Source of the DNA: Gammaproteobacteria bacterium
GTDB taxonomy: Bacteria; Pseudomonadota; Gammaproteobacteria; Enterobacterales; Psychrobiaceae
Assembly: GCA_013214965.1 (NCBI GenBank)
Contig: JABSRU010000012.1
Span: 1 to 39,468 of the forward strand
DNA: 39,468 bases
Direction: 5' to 3'
Positions 6,334 through 11,832 of this stretch are shown here, one piece after another. Position 1 is the stretch's first letter. Every line of letters begins with the position of its first letter. The notes under the pieces were generated by a model that had not been told where the DNA came from, searched no databases, and saw nothing but the letters and a program-made list of their open reading frames with translations. The translations under genes were made by a program, and so were the position numbers.

Positions 6334-6356
6334 GATGAGGCCTAACCCGCCTCATC
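6334..6356 (+). terminator. Hairpin downstream of tolC (possible terminator)
   Basis: GATGAGGC (6334-6341) pairs perfectly with GCCTCATC (6349-6356) around a 7-base loop, 8 bases after the tolC stop. It is followed by C-rich sequence and then CTTCTT rather than a clean T-run, so it may be a weak terminator or only an mRNA-protecting hairpin. Confidence 0.45.
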
Positions 6357-6363
6357 CCCCTTC

Positions 6364-6380
6364 TTGGACAGACACAAATT
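6364..6380 (+). repeat. GGACAGRCAC repeat, copy 1
   Basis: TTGGACAGACACAAATT, between tolC and the transposase gene. Together with copy 2 it forms a direct pair with a period of 31 bases. Confidence 0.75.
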
Positions 6381-6390
6381 CCTCTTCCTT

Positions 6391-6412
6391 TATATTGGAC
6401 AGACACAAATTT
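6391..6412 (+). repeat. GGACAGRCAC repeat, copy 2
   Basis: TATA followed by TTGGACAGACACAAATTT. The preceding CCTCTTCCTT makes the match to copies 5-7 longer on the pyrimidine-rich side. Confidence 0.75.
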
Positions 6413-6585
6413 ATTTAGCAGTTTTAACGAATGGATAATTTTTTCAAAACTATTCGTCATAATTTAGTGAAAATATTCAATGTTTGATGGGTGTTTTAGG
6501 AGATTTCTAATGTGTATTTTTACTATTGGCAATGAAAATCCATGCCTTCAAATAAAAGCATAAATATTTAATGTCAAATTGATAG

Positions 6586-7581
6586 TCAACCGGTGCCTTT
6601 GTGCCAACTATGGCCATGAGCGAGTGCAAAATGGCGTAAAGCATTTTGGGAACCAGCAAAACTGCCATATTGTCGTCTAAAATTTAGCACTGACTCAATC
6701 CATTCATCCTCGTCAATCTGCAAAGCGTCAATAATTTTAGGCTCATTAGCGGTTATGTACCCCTCCTTTAATAAATCTATATGCCGCCCACTCCAATCAA
6801 CTAACTCAAGGTAATCTTTTAAACCAAAAGGAATGCCATCGTCTGAATTATCTGCCCCAATAAAGCTTAGTAAAGATTCTGGTTGCTGTTGAATTGAAAA
6901 ATCAGGCTTAGCCTTAGGATTATTAATATTTTTTTTATGAGCGCTATGTTGGATAATTCTCTCTTGAATAGAAGTGAAATCACTGGTTAATAGCGAGTGA
7001 CATTCGCCTGCTCTAACAGGGTTTAAGTCGACATATGCCATGCAGCTCAACAAAGCATTATTATCTAACAGTGCTTGAGACTTAAAACGACCTTCCCAAA
7101 ACTTACCAGTGCAATCATCTTCTTTATTAGATGATCTGGCAATAAACTCATTTAACGACTTCATAAACCAGGAAATATCATGCAATCTAGCGCGCCATCT
7201 TTCTGAAATGTTGATAACGGTATCCAGTTGCTGAGAGGTTTGCACTTTACCCTTGAGATATTCATCAACAAGAATATTACCGTTAAATAGTTTATACCAA
7301 CGGCTTATCACTTCATCTCGGGACCATTTCAAAGCTCGCCGCTTATCGACATGCAACACCAAATGGTAGTGATTACTCATCACTGCGTAAGCTGCTATGT
7401 CTATTGAATAAATTTGAGATAACAACTTAAATCTATCGATTAATAGCTGCCGCCGATGGTCATAATTCTTACCAGTAAACCTGTCTTCACCACACAAGTA
7501 ACTACGCCTGACACATCGATTAATCACATGATAATAAGGCGTTTCAGCCAAATCTATTAAAGAATTCCTAGCTCTAGTCAT
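6586..7581 (-). CDS. REP-associated tyrosine transposase (Y1/HUH family, IS200-like)
   Basis: Single-strand DNA transposase of the Y1_Tnp / REP-associated (RAYT) group. The N-terminal PYYHVINRCVRRSYLCGE block, the HUH metal motif in VMSNHYHLVLHVD near residue 90, and a downstream MAYVDLNPVRAG block that carries the likely catalytic Tyr are all present. The ATG at 7581 is chosen over TTG at 7593, giving 331 residues, longer than minimal IS200 transposases because of a C-terminal extension. The gene sits between tolC and the exopolysaccharide locus and is flanked by short repeats that recur nearby. The reading frame is intact. Whether it mobilises itself or only the short repeats is not shown by sequence. 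Confidence 0.88.
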   Translation of the reverse strand: MTRARNSLIDLAETPYYHVINRCVRRSYLCGEDRFTGKNYDHRRQLLIDRFKLLSQIYSIDIAAYAVMSNHYHLVLHVDKRRALKWSRDEVISRWYKLFNGNILVDEYLKGKVQTSQQLDTVINISERWRARLHDISWFMKSLNEFIARSSNKEDDCTGKFWEGRFKSQALLDNNALLSCMAYVDLNPVRAGECHSLLTSDFTSIQERIIQHSAHKKNINNPKAKPDFSIQQQPESLLSFIGADNSDDGIPFGLKDYLELVDWSGRHIDLLKEGYITANEPKIIDALQIDEDEWIESVLNFRRQYGSFAGSQNALRHFALAHGHSWHKGTG

Positions 7582-7655
7582 CTCAGTCACCAATTCAGAA
7601 ACTTAATGCACTCGAGATTTTAGTCTAAAATTTGGATATTACAAATTTAAGCTGT

Positions 7656-7680
7656 ATTTTATGTCTGTCCAATTAAAGAG
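7656..7680 (-). repeat. GGACAGRCAC repeat, copy 3 (inverted relative to copies 1-2)
   Basis: The minus strand reads CTCTTTAATTGGACAGACAT followed by AAAAT. It forms the right inverted boundary of the transposase unit and abuts the stop codon of the gene ending at 7681. Confidence 0.65.
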
Positions 7681-8112
7681 TTAATCAAAAAAATCTTTAA
7701 ACCAAGCCCATACACCAAAAGAAAAATTAGGGAATATATCGATACCAAGAGCCGATTTAATCAAATACAGCACCAACACGCCAAGCACAGAACAAAATAG
7801 CAAAAAAACAGTAGCGAAAGATGCATGCATCAATAGCCCCAATCGCCTTTCTCGGCGAGTTAATTCACGACGATTTCGCCCAGCGACAAAGACATAATAA
7901 TATCGATAACGAAAAAATTTAACCGTACTTCGAACATCAATGGCATGGCTACCCCACGTTCGCGCACTAATGGCTATCTTAATATTGGCCAGTTGTTCCT
8001 CGGTAAAACTGTCTTGAACCTCTTTAGGCATTCTATCCAACAATTTACGTAAACCAGTGTCTTTAGTCAGTTTATTACGAAGCCTTGCGTTTTCTTGAGC
8101 TAGCGTTTCCAT
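7681..8112 (-). CDS. Uncharacterised membrane protein of the exopolysaccharide locus
   Basis: A 143-residue protein of unknown function. Residues 1-50 are charged and helical with a METLAQENARLRNKL start that could form a short coiled coil. Next comes a conserved-looking ARTWGSHAIDVRSTVKFF segment and a very basic GRNRRELTRRERR stretch. One strong membrane helix or hairpin follows at about residues 92-120, then a short aromatic tail. The basic stretch before the helix suggests an inner-membrane protein with a cytosolic N-terminal part. It is the last gene of the export block, 24 bases after vpsP, so a role in polysaccharide production is inferred from position only. Its stop codon touches a mobile repeat. 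Confidence 0.8.
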   Translation of the reverse strand: METLAQENARLRNKLTKDTGLRKLLDRMPKEVQDSFTEEQLANIKIAISARTWGSHAIDVRSTVKFFRYRYYYVFVAGRNRRELTRRERRLGLLMHASFATVFLLFCSVLGVLVLYLIKSALGIDIFPNFSFGVWAWFKDFFD

Positions 8113-8136
8113 AAATATAAGTCCTTTTATACCATA

Positions 8137-8832
8137 TTATTTATTGGCGCAATATTTCATAAAATAGTTATGCTGACGATACTTAGCGTAAGCATCGTCA
8201 GTTAGCATTTCATCGCATAAAACACTTTCTTTATCTAAATCTTTAGCAAATTTTAACAATTCCAACAGCACCTTAGACTCCTGCGCTGATTTTCCCAATT
8301 GCTCAAACATCGAATTCACTTCATCTTCAGTCAAAACCTCCCAATAAAACAGATAGACTTTAACCACTGCAACAGTCACTGCATTCATGTATGGACCTGC
8401 AATTTGTGCCTGTCCAATATAATGCTTGGTTTCGTCATTTAAGCCATAAATACTGTTACTCAACATAACCAAATCAACCCAAGGTTCTGGCCATAAAGGC
8501 CTGAGAGATGTTGCCAATAAATACCAGTTTTTGACATCCTCTAACGTCATATCTAGTTCATAACCCATTGAAATTCCCCAATGAGTAATCCGACCAACCA
8601 TATGAGCATAATGAGGATGACCGGGATCTAATTGCTGCGCCTTCACCACGGCAGTAAGCGCATCAACATAATCTTGATCACTAACTTCTGCCCCTTTTTC
8701 ATTCCATTGTTGCAAAGCAAAGTCAGCTTGATAATACCAAGCACTGGCAGTGCCGCGCACCCAAGATTGATAAAGACCATAACAACATAATGCTGCCAAG
8801 AAGAACGCAGTAACATTACGAAAGAATCGCAT
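8137..8832 (-). CDS. VpsP-like polysaccharide biosynthesis protein
   Basis: A membrane-anchored protein resembling the VpsP family encoded in vibrio and alteromonad exopolysaccharide loci; the biochemical role is unknown. The N-terminal helix (FFRNVTAFFLAALCCYGLY) is a signal anchor. The body has a TPR-like look, with AVVKAQQLDPGHPHYAHMVGR near residue 70 and WYLLATSLRPLWPEPW near 105. The frame extends to an ATG at 8865, but those extra 11 codons lie wholly in a mobile repeat. I therefore start at ATG 8832, giving 231 residues. A second repeat copy lies in frame inside the gene (8399-8424) and encodes YIGQAQI. Confidence 0.75.
   Translation of the reverse strand: MRFFRNVTAFFLAALCCYGLYQSWVRGTASAWYYQADFALQQWNEKGAEVSDQDYVDALTAVVKAQQLDPGHPHYAHMVGRITHWGISMGYELDMTLEDVKNWYLLATSLRPLWPEPWVDLVMLSNSIYGLNDETKHYIGQAQIAGPYMNAVTVAVVKVYLFYWEVLTEDEVNSMFEQLGKSAQESKVLLELLKFAKDLDKESVLCDEMLTDDAYAKYRQHNYFMKYCANK
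8399..8424 (-). repeat. GGACAGRCAC repeat, copy 4, inside the vpsP-like gene
   Basis: The minus strand carries TATATTGGACAGGCACAAAT in frame, translated as YIGQAQI in the context KHYIGQAQIAGPYM. It has the same reading frame as copy 7 in the phosphatase gene. Confidence 0.8.
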
Positions 8833-8861
8833 TTTTGTGCCTGTCCAATAATAAGGGAGGG
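8832..8861 (-). repeat. GGACAGRCAC repeat, copy 5
   Basis: The minus strand runs CCCTCCCTTATTATTGGACA and on into GGCACAAAAA. It lies immediately before the preferred start codon of the vpsP-like gene and repeats copy 6 with a 36-base period. Confidence 0.8.
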
Positions 8862-8867
8862 TCATTA

Positions 8868-8897
8868 AATTTATGCCTGTCCAATAATAAGGAGGGG
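8868..8897 (-). repeat. GGACAGRCAC repeat, copy 6, forming the end of the phosphatase gene
   Basis: The minus strand runs CCCCTCCTTATTATTGGACA and on into GGCATAAATT. In the phosphatase frame it encodes PLLIIGQA and then TAA, so the C-terminus and the stop codon of that gene come from the repeat. Confidence 0.8.
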
Positions 8898-9599
8898 ATT
8901 AGTGTGGAACAAAGATTGTGCTGTAGCCTCACCGTGAAGTTCAGTGACTTTGGCGCGCGCTTCGCTAAGCACTGGTGGACGGCGTTTGATGTTGTGTGCG
9001 TCAGTCGCAACCACGTCAATAATGCCCTGCGCTAAGTAATCTAGCGCTAGCACTTGGCATTGCTCGCCAAACTTGCCAGTGATCGAACCTGCCGTTAATT
9101 GCAACATGCAGCCTAGGCGCACAAACGGTTTAATCTTATTTGGCGATTTTAGCAAATCTCGGTTTCTTTCAGGGTGCGCAATAATCGGAATGATATTTTG
9201 ACTAATTAAATACTTAATCAGCATATCACTACCCGGCGGAATATGACTGTGGGGAAACTCCAACAGCATATAATTTTTGCGGCAAATTTGTGCCTGTCCA
9301 ATATAGAGAGGGAGGGAGTGGTTGTCGACCAACTGTAGTATGAGTGCGTCGAGGCGGACTTCGGCGGCGAAGCTTAGTTTTACTTTGATGCCGCGTTCGA
9401 TAACTGCGGCTTCAAAAATCGCGAATTCACGTTCGATAACCGATTTAAAGTTTTCGAAGCGGCCAAAATGCAAATGAGGCGTCAGCACCACATGCGTAAT
9501 GCCGTCATCGACGGCCATTTGCAGTAGTGTTAACGCCTCATCCATATCTTGGGCACCATCGTCGATGCCTGGTAAAAGATGACAATGAATATCAATCAT
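8871..9599 (-). CDS. PHP-domain tyrosine-protein phosphatase (CpsB/YwqE type)
   Basis: Metal-dependent phosphatase of the PHP fold that dephosphorylates BY-kinases such as the Wzc-like protein encoded just upstream. Metal ligands are seen in MIDIHCHLLPGIDDGA at the N-terminus, LTPHLHFG near residue 40, IPIIAHPERNRD near 140 and VVATDAHNIKRRPP near 195. The 242 residues are normal for the family. Two mobile-repeat copies lie inside the frame: copy 7 gives LPLYIGQAQICRKN near residue 100, and copy 6 provides the last residues IIGQA and the stop. None of the metal-binding motifs is touched, so the enzyme may still work. It replaces the low-molecular-weight phosphatase found in many such loci. 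Confidence 0.88.
   Translation of the reverse strand: MIDIHCHLLPGIDDGAQDMDEALTLLQMAVDDGITHVVLTPHLHFGRFENFKSVIEREFAIFEAAVIERGIKVKLSFAAEVRLDALILQLVDNHSLPLYIGQAQICRKNYMLLEFPHSHIPPGSDMLIKYLISQNIIPIIAHPERNRDLLKSPNKIKPFVRLGCMLQLTAGSITGKFGEQCQVLALDYLAQGIIDVVATDAHNIKRRPPVLSEARAKVTELHGEATAQSLFHTNPLLIIGQA
9283..9316 (-). repeat. GGACAGRCAC repeat, copy 7, inside the phosphatase gene
   Basis: The minus strand reads CCCTCCCTCTCTATATTGGA and continues CAGGCACAAATTTG. It is translated as part of LPLYIGQAQIC in the PHP phosphatase, between the metal-binding motifs. Confidence 0.8.
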
Positions 9600-9612
9600 A
9601 TCAATGCCTATA

Positions 9613-11832
9613 TTAACTGTCTTTGCTTGCTACATCGTCGCCATAAGAATAATCATTATAGTAACCGTGGTAATAATCACTTTGATCCATCTTCTTGGTA
9701 TCAATTTGATTTAACACAACCCCAGCTATCTTAACATTGGTTTGCAACAAGCGCCCTAAGCCACTTTGCACCACACCAATGCGAGTATCATCACTCTTAA
9801 CCACATAAATCACCGTATCAACATGCTGAGCTATCACCAACGAATCACTCACGGCTTGAATCGGTGCAGTATCAATCACCACACGATCATAAGTCTTTTT
9901 AAGCGCCGCTAAAATTTCAACAAAACATTTAGACGCCAGCAACTCCAACGGATTCGGTGGCAATTGCCCACAAGGCATCACCGTTAAACCCGACTCTTCA
10001 TCATGATAAATACAATCTTCAAATTTCTCAGTGCCCGCAATATAATTGGCCAACCCAGGATGATAAGGCGGAATATCAAAACGCTTACACAAACTTGGCT
10101 TGCGCATATCGCCATCAATCAAAATAGTTTTATCCATTTGAGCCAACGCAAACGCTAAGTTACAAGCAATAGTCGTTTTACCCTCACCTGGCAACGACGA
10201 CGTCACCTCAATTAATTTAGCATCGCTATTCAACTGAGTTAACACAAAGCTAGTACGCAAGGTTCGCACCGACTCAGCGAATTTTTTGCCATCGGCAGAA
10301 AAGTAATGATGCAAGTCCATCGGTGCACCCTTCTTACCAGCCACCAAGGGCAACATCCCTAACATCCGTTGCGATAACTTATTCTCAACATCACGAGCCG
10401 ACTTAAACGTATCGTTCAACGCTTCAATCACAAAAGCAAACACCACACCTAAGCCCAACGATGCAACAAAAGCCAAAATCACAATCAACGGTTTGTTTGG
10501 TTTCGACGGACGACTAGGTCTATAGGCACGGTCAGTAAAACGTGCAACCGCTGAATCAAAATCGCTGGTTACTTCAGTCTCTTTAGAACGCGAGAAGAAC
10601 GTGTCATAAATTTTACGATTGGTTTTCACTTCACGCATTAACTTACGATATTCATATTCTTTACCGGTAACCATTTGAAATTGTGCTTTAATCCGCACTA
10701 ATTCACGCTCTAGCGCCTCAACATTACTAGTATTAGTCTTTAATTCTTTTTCAACGCCAGTTATCAAACGGCGAATTTGAGTCGACAGGTTTTTCTTCAC
10801 TGTTACTAACTCAGCTTGAGCCGCAATCATTTTAGGATGCTTAGGACCATAAACCTGTGATAGTTCCGACACCTTTAATTCAACAGTAATCAGTGTTTGC
10901 TTAACATCTTGAATCACTTTATGAGAGGTAATTTCAGTAATCGATTCAAGCATCGCAATATTGTCACGACCGTATTCGTTAATCACCCGGACAATGCTTT
11001 GTAACTTGTTTTTCTCGTTACGCGCCACCACTAATTGCTGTGAAGTTTGTTCTAGTTCTTTAGACACCAAACCCAACACGCCTTCAACATCGATCAAGTT
11101 TTCGCGTTCGCGATAAACCTGCAATTTCGACTCCGACGCATCCAAACGAATTCGTAAATCAGACAACCGGGTGGTTAACCACCCCGCCGCTTTTTGAGTC
11201 AAACCCATTTTCGCGGTTAAGTGCTGCTCAATATAAACCTCACCTACCGTATTCGCTACCAACGCCGCTAATTTAGGATCAGCACTCTCATAGGTAATTT
11301 TCACCAACTGAGTTTTACGCACCGGACTAATCGTTAAACGCTTAGCAAAAACATCAACCAGCGCTTGCAACTCAAACTCTTGCTGCTCAGCAGCTGACAA
11401 AACCATCGGAACTTTTTTAGGAATAAACGGAATAGCCGCTTTAAGTTCAGCAATCATCGAAGGTTTAGCTTCAAAATCAGGATGATCTTTCAAATTAAGC
11501 TTAATCACCACCGCTTCAGCAATTTTGCGCGACTTTAAAATTTCAAACTGGGTTAAATAATATTCTTTACGATTAGAATCCAGGCCATAAATTTCATCAA
11601 AAGAAACCGCTTTAGCCTGCTGTGCCTCAATCAATAACACCGCCGTTGCACGATATTTAGGGGTTAGATTTAACGCCACTACCGCCGCCAAACACGCCAC
11701 CACAACCGCCAAAAAAGCAATGCGCCATTTGTACTTATTAATCACCGAAAAATATTGTCGCAAATCGATAACTTCTTCAGTTTTAGGCGCGTTATTGTTA
11801 GTGCCTATCTCAAATTTTTCCATAATCGTCAT
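9613..11832 (-). CDS. Wzc-like polysaccharide co-polymerase / BY-kinase (VpsO-like)
   Basis: Inner-membrane chain-length regulator fused to a bacterial tyrosine kinase. An N-terminal helix lies at about residues 34-54 (WRIAFLAVVVACLAAVVAL). It is followed by the Wzz domain, a long coiled-coil GNVR-type periplasmic region (about 220-420) and a second helix near 455. The kinase domain has Walker A SSLPGEGKTTIACN near 545, Walker A' ILIDGDMRKPS and Walker B VVIDTAPI. The C-terminus ends in a tyrosine cluster, DYYHGYYNDYSYGDD, the site of autophosphorylation in this family. ATG at 11832 follows AAAGG and directly abuts the stop of the export gene. The PHP phosphatase downstream is its likely partner. 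Confidence 0.95.
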   Translation of the reverse strand: MTIMEKFEIGTNNNAPKTEEVIDLRQYFSVINKYKWRIAFLAVVVACLAAVVALNLTPKYRATAVLLIEAQQAKAVSFDEIYGLDSNRKEYYLTQFEILKSRKIAEAVVIKLNLKDHPDFEAKPSMIAELKAAIPFIPKKVPMVLSAAEQQEFELQALVDVFAKRLTISPVRKTQLVKITYESADPKLAALVANTVGEVYIEQHLTAKMGLTQKAAGWLTTRLSDLRIRLDASESKLQVYRERENLIDVEGVLGLVSKELEQTSQQLVVARNEKNKLQSIVRVINEYGRDNIAMLESITEITSHKVIQDVKQTLITVELKVSELSQVYGPKHPKMIAAQAELVTVKKNLSTQIRRLITGVEKELKTNTSNVEALERELVRIKAQFQMVTGKEYEYRKLMREVKTNRKIYDTFFSRSKETEVTSDFDSAVARFTDRAYRPSRPSKPNKPLIVILAFVASLGLGVVFAFVIEALNDTFKSARDVENKLSQRMLGMLPLVAGKKGAPMDLHHYFSADGKKFAESVRTLRTSFVLTQLNSDAKLIEVTSSLPGEGKTTIACNLAFALAQMDKTILIDGDMRKPSLCKRFDIPPYHPGLANYIAGTEKFEDCIYHDEESGLTVMPCGQLPPNPLELLASKCFVEILAALKKTYDRVVIDTAPIQAVSDSLVIAQHVDTVIYVVKSDDTRIGVVQSGLGRLLQTNVKIAGVVLNQIDTKKMDQSDYYHGYYNDYSYGDDVASKDS

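Follow-up and report, generated by a model that had tools for sequence, protein, structure and literature searches.

Terminal inverted repeats of a TIRYT-like transposable element inside neighboring host genes of a gammaproteobacterium, and their possible origin by replacement of codons rather than by insertion

TIR-associated tyrosine transposases (TIRYTs) are described as having terminal inverted repeats (TIRs) with the consensus GGGGWSAS (PMC3733652). The element examined here, which lies in a 39,468-nt window (the whole stretch of gammaproteobacterial DNA that was analyzed), most resembles this TIRYT/TIRtron group. As in TIRtrons, a Y1 transposase gene lies between TIRs that contain a GGWSAS core and are set at similar distances from it, and TIR copies occur in dimers and clusters (PMC3733652). 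It differs in that the window ends read TTGGACAG, not GGGGACAG, the window core GGACAG fitting GGWSAS with TT where the GGGGWSAS consensus has its first GG, and in that copies in the window lie inside the coding frames of host genes. Its group is probably the one designated TnpAREP subclass 2.1 and RAYT group 1 (PMC6006769). Subclass 2.1 has a C-terminal HTH-like domain; here Pfam gave no HTH match at E values up to 5 for three proteins at full length and for one C-terminal piece. REP/RAYT (REPtron) systems are similar in that repeats gather near a transposase gene, an accumulation reported for some REPs (PMC2817692), but whereas a REP is palindromic with a GTAG/GTGG foot, the window repeat is present in few copies and has neither a palindrome nor a GTAG foot. 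Rickettsia palindromic elements and intragenic REPs likewise place repeat DNA in frame in unrelated proteins, with copies supplying stop codons; however, these are described as palindromic insertions, whereas the copies here appear mainly to be replacements. Lastly, template switching between imperfect inverted repeats is reported to change neighboring codons in yeast genes, with short patches homogenized between inverted repeats and several neighboring residues changed (PMC8604942), whereas at our locus the spacing is 2-3 kb and the mechanism is one that we infer. The RAYT/REPIN and TIRYT literature searched yielded no explanation of where the solo TIRs of this kind of element come from, nor was replacement by TIRs found in the titles and abstract openings listed on intragenic palindromes, RAYT/REPIN, template switching and TIRYT, and none of the papers listed for the letters of the repeat motif was on the subject.

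The transposase gene occupies 6586..7593 on the minus strand and encodes 335 aa. Weak but consistent evidence identifies its product as a putative RAYT-type (RAYT/TIRYT) Y1 HUH transposase: it scored 45.7 bits against NCBIfam REP_Tyr_transpos and 20.9 bits against Pfam Y1_Tnp, below the respective cut-offs of 80 and 23, and its translation contains HYH and YVDLNP, which we take to be the catalytic motifs of a Y1 transposase. Two paralogues in the same genome scored 27 and 18.6 bits. The left end of the element, TTGGACAGACATAAAAT (7656..7672, minus strand), has the same orientation as the transposase gene, from whose listed start codon it is separated by 63 bp on the upstream side, and is without a pyrimidine tract (tract score -9.9 bits). 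Downstream are two inverted copies, namely the right end (6381..6411, plus strand, core at 6395), which consists of a pyrimidine tract plus TTGGACAGACACAAATT, and a second right-end copy 31 bp further out (6350..6380, plus strand, core at 6364). A comparable layout was found around related transposase genes, which were hand-picked among the matches listed, with the window added and with some contigs being short. Among 62 such genes at 60 loci, the end motif GGACA was present on both sides of 46, only upstream of 11, only downstream of 3 and on neither side of 2. The upstream motif was thus found in 57/62 genes, and the median distances were 70 bp upstream and 220 bp downstream, the motif having been sought from 50 to 120 bp upstream and, in inverted form, from 150 to 320 bp downstream; simple arithmetic alone puts the chance rate of this 5-base motif at roughly 7% and 17% in these fixed ranges. 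In genome G246, seven copies show identity that starts and stops near the GGACA motif. Since relatives have the same flanking layout and identity starts and stops near the motif, the repeat is the TIR of the neighboring Y1-transposase element, and the link between repeat and adjoining transposase drawn in the first-pass annotation was therefore well placed. In its fuller form the TIR is about 30 bp (pyrimidine tract plus TTGGACAGGCACAAATT), and the element spans approximately 6350-7672. Beside the left end, a small gene at 7681-8112 has the same direction as the following vpsP and PHP genes, whereas in three of the four relatives examined, those in which the gene was found (L120, L121 and L134), it faces them, and its differing direction therefore points to a local inversion beside the transposon.

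The window contains seven copies of TTGGACAGGCACAAATT or close variants of it (≤3 mismatches), against 0.16 expected, and every one of them falls between 6364 and 9301; none of 100 shuffled sequences reached seven. Two copies are exact over 17 bases, at 8401-8417 in the vpsP frame and at 9285-9301 in the PHP frame (both minus strand); they have 21 bases in common and both read YIGQAQI, just as first annotated. A further copy at 8868-8884 (minus strand), with one mismatch, does read IIGQA followed by a stop (TAA); what had been missed is that this peptide and stop are the C-terminus of the same PHP gene (8871-9599). The 4.25-Mb genome of the organism contains 13 places with ≤2 mismatches (reversed-pattern control, 0), of which six are in the window, two are on the same contig 41 kb away, two are on contig C65 beside another transposase relative and three are on contigs C14, C61 and C118, those on C61 and C118 being taken for chance matches. 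At ≤1 mismatch, an order-wide scan returned matches in 16/394 genomes, three of them in the genus of the window (reversed-pattern control, 5 matches), which shows that the repeat is no high-copy family across the order, and there was no exact 17-base match in the other 393 genomes. An exact 19-mer scan of GTDB contigs, from which records near the window's own genome were perhaps left out, gave one unrelated record that we treated as chance. Because the copies are few and local, the idea of a DNA uptake sequence was set aside. The earlier description of the repeat as not an obvious palindrome agrees with fold z-scores of -0.75 to 1.28 for seven copies, none of which indicate a palindrome, and the unit common to the copies lacks a GTAG foot.

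Solo ends were also found to crowd around related elements, using each element's own one or two end 16-mers (≤2 mismatches, outside the element) as the query. Around 40 elements at 39 loci, there were 24, 6, 6, 1 and 0 solos at 0-1, 1-2, 2-4, 4-6 and 6-9 kb, respectively, and around 20 further elements there were 12, 11, 3, 0 and 2, with a reversed-motif control of 0 in every bin of both sets. The first set includes the second full element of L217, each of its two elements being scored as a neighbor of the other, and L218, where neither gene yielded an end motif, is absent from the counts. Overall, 62/65 of the solos counted out to 9 kb lie within 4 kb of an element. When each solo is counted once and the ends of a second full element are left out, 47 of the 56 solos within 4 kb are oriented like the nearer end (25 left, 22 right), while nine break this rule. 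Many of the solos around other elements are truncated element ends or intergenic, and coding copies are therefore unusual. Crowding has more than one cause, since at other elements several solos are part of truncated ends in head-to-tail stacks; the window solos, by comparison, were found to have no further element DNA beside them. Regarding such stacks, truncated left-end fragments of about 130 to 620 bp precede the full copy at L199, L207, L211, L212 and L214 (element-oriented positions ~8040-8900). At L199, L211 and L212, no more than a few bases separate each left-end fragment from the left end that follows it, and the rest of the fragments was not found in the DNA retrieved from the other side. 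At L217, two full elements with 97% identity and a third truncated one are arranged in tandem within 5 kb.

The PHP-type CpsB/CapC phosphatase gene (8871..9599, minus strand; PF19567, 177.5 bits, cut-off 27) hosts two copies, both with the tract. The first (9285..9315, minus strand) lies inside the gene, reads LPLYIGQAQI and, in the homologue alignment, is accompanied by a net gain of three residues. These are absent from all 22 homologues aligned, the nearest of which is 64% identical (31 loci were considered, nine of which gave no reading frame with the pattern used). At this site the window has Pro, three residues and Gly, whereas homologues have Pro, two residues and Gly, and just after the Pro-Gly stretch the homologues are two residues shorter than the window. 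The second copy (8868..8898, minus strand) is the translated C-terminus PLLIIGQA together with the TAA stop. In its two nearest relatives the protein terminates in NPYNITASLFES and NPYNITASLFKS, in the window in NPLLIIGQA; because the C-termini of the 22 homologues vary, and several are as short as that of the window, the case for a C-terminal replacement comes from these two relatives. Another solo copy with the tract (8832..8862, minus strand) is located where PHP and vpsP adjoin and immediately precedes MRFF, a possible start of vpsP (the ORF as listed begins further upstream), and the space between the PHP end and vpsP is filled by two tandem copies. The codons CTC and GGA are also concentrated in the copies, since the two copies in the PHP gene contain three of its five CTC codons and its only two GGA codons, compared to a background in the 27 other window genes of 46/1080 Leu codons (4.3%) for CTC and 59/602 Gly codons (9.8%) for GGA.

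The single copy in the vpsP family gene (8137..8865, minus strand; NF038257, 127.3 bits, cut-off 125) presents a different picture. This copy, TATATTGGACAGGCACAAATT (8401..8421, minus strand), lacks the pyrimidine tract (-1.8 bits) and leaves the length of the protein unchanged. All 27 homologues used align across the site without a gap, with Y, I/L, A, G and P common to most of them (of 30 loci considered, those left out were L177, which gave no frame, L163, which gave a wrong one, and L175, the window's own locus). The nearest homologue reads YIQQALVVGP and another YIQQAEIAGP, while the window reads YIGQAQIAGP. Since the site is ungapped and typical of the family, YIGQAQI seems to be mostly native to vpsP. 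Thus, the outcome named in the first-pass annotation as one that would refute its idea, homologues with the same residues, is largely seen in vpsP, but not in PHP. Two further GGA codons of vpsP are outside the copy. The nearest relatives found are 64% (PHP) and 42% (vpsP) identical, and the state of either gene before the event is therefore a reconstruction.

Two weaker matches, C54:50473 and 50666, read LLGQAQT and SNWTGKN in a gene that we presume to be GH63-like. They are within ~200 bp of each other and ~2 kb from another transposase relative. With a 31-bp matrix built from five clear copies, vpsP scored 27.0 bits and the GH63-like sites 21.7 and 23.6 bits, whereas the best other-genus score was 13.4 bits among ~1.30 million positions, once the top row (L175, the window's own locus) was dropped. 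At the first site, 4/10 homologues are five residues shorter beside it. The conservation of both sites is below the median of the protein (7th and 22nd percentile, 10 homologues), and the gene uses the codons CTC (8/79) and GGA (9/56) more freely. At L078, the GH63-like gene and another relative of the transposase (9584-10585) are convergent and 24 bp apart, and no right end was found where others have one.

We see an even chance that these observations reflect the TIR of a TIRYT/TIRtron-kind element whose local solo ends overwrite codons at sites that are already similar, rather than arriving as intact insertions. Solo ends would accumulate within a few kb of an element, most often oriented like its nearer end, and in coding DNA an end would replace a short native stretch at a partly similar site. 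In vpsP this would have altered about two residues with no change in length, in the middle of PHP a short segment would have been exchanged with three residues added, and at the PHP end the last residues and the spacer would have been replaced and a new stop provided. The coding copies would accordingly be products of the element's activity through short-patch copying. Two routes could be envisaged, either template switching from one imperfect inverted repeat to another or annealing of end DNA that the transposase has released in single-stranded form. In three of the four window solos, the tract matches the right end (6395) at 9, 9 and 10 of 14 positions and the left end at only 4, 4 and 3, even though these three solos are on the left side and inverted relative to the right end. 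The vpsP tract does not discriminate between right and left (7 vs 6), and the GH63-like tracts point both ways, one site favoring the left end (8 vs 6). Taken together, the match to the right-end tract, the inverted orientation and the ungapped patches suggest that sequence was copied from one imperfect inverted repeat to another, or that end DNA freed by the transposase annealed.

A somewhat unlikely alternative is that the transposase inserts whole end units of ~30 bp, after which small deletions and selection restore length and frame. The net gain of three PHP residues fits this, as do units of ~23-30 bp that end near the same element position and recur as solos at L086, L089, L217 and L211; furthermore, intragenic REPs are described as insertions and REP ends as often giving stop codons (PMC3733652). 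However, there is no gap at the site in vpsP among its 27 homologues, nor at either GH63-like site against four same-genus homologues, and residues conserved in the families survive inside the copies. Alignment to homologues, which had been proposed as the means to separate insertion from replacement, therefore gives a split answer, with a net gain in PHP and none in vpsP.

We find it rather improbable that only the PHP and junction copies derive from the element, with the match in vpsP, and perhaps those in the GH63-like gene, having drifted from codons that already specified YIxQAxI. A repeat-free vpsP gene already matches 13/17 core bases, the vpsP site is as conserved as is usual for the protein (72nd percentile), and one-mismatch matches arise about once per 30 genomes in other genera (13 in 385 genomes), with xxQAQI or nearly so in the longest open frame of 9/13, although these 13 include two pairs that seem to be orthologous and one match whose open frame is just 77 codons long. 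Drift is nonetheless difficult to reconcile with a vpsP copy ~0.7 kb from the element when an exact 17-base match was seen in none of the other 393 genomes, with the probability of 0.0016 for the repeat's codons given YIGQAQI, and with the proximity of the two GH63-like matches to each other. The same background bears upon the shared peptide. The repeat can be read without a stop in each of its six frames, and 9/28 examined genus sites are inside a covering open frame of ≥90 codons, three in the xGQAQ frame, three reading WTG and three antisense; the PHP C-terminal reading at 8868 is outside these nine, as its stop falls within the site. A proposed frame bias toward YIGQAQI thus amounts to 3/9 coding sites in the genus, and because 9/13 near-matches in other genera use that frame, we rejected it as evidence of frame selection. 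The shared peptide is no evidence of a selected module. If codons are overwritten, the xGQAQI frame would simply be what ordinary coding sequence already favors.

It is highly improbable that the repeat is a mobile element which codes for a peptide and was inserted, in the manner of the Rickettsia palindromic elements, in a frame that tolerates it, and this reading was rejected: unrelated proteins do carry in-frame copies, but the repeat is no palindrome, vpsP contains no clean insertion, the frame preference does not exceed background and the genome has only 13 places at ≤2 mismatches. Of the first-pass annotation, what stands is the link to the transposase, the location inside two coding frames and their tolerance of it, whereas the frame-preferring peptide module and the Rickettsia likeness do not.

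Returning to the replacement of codons by solo ends, a broader and quite doubtful possibility is that transposon ends act as local writers, which, when unpaired at the replication fork, would pair with similar sequence in neighboring genes and edit codons without inserting. The end sequence would be copied by template switching or short single-strand exchange, and left-side solos resembling the inverted right end, along with ungapped in-frame patches, would therefore be expected. Of the 295 genomes of the order that were searched, 98, or a third, have a relative of the transposase (E≤1e-30), and the many related loci make overwriting testable. If ends do overwrite rather than insert, they would be a source of clustered amino acid changes near such elements, and such changes could be mistaken for signs of positive selection or for mobile peptides.
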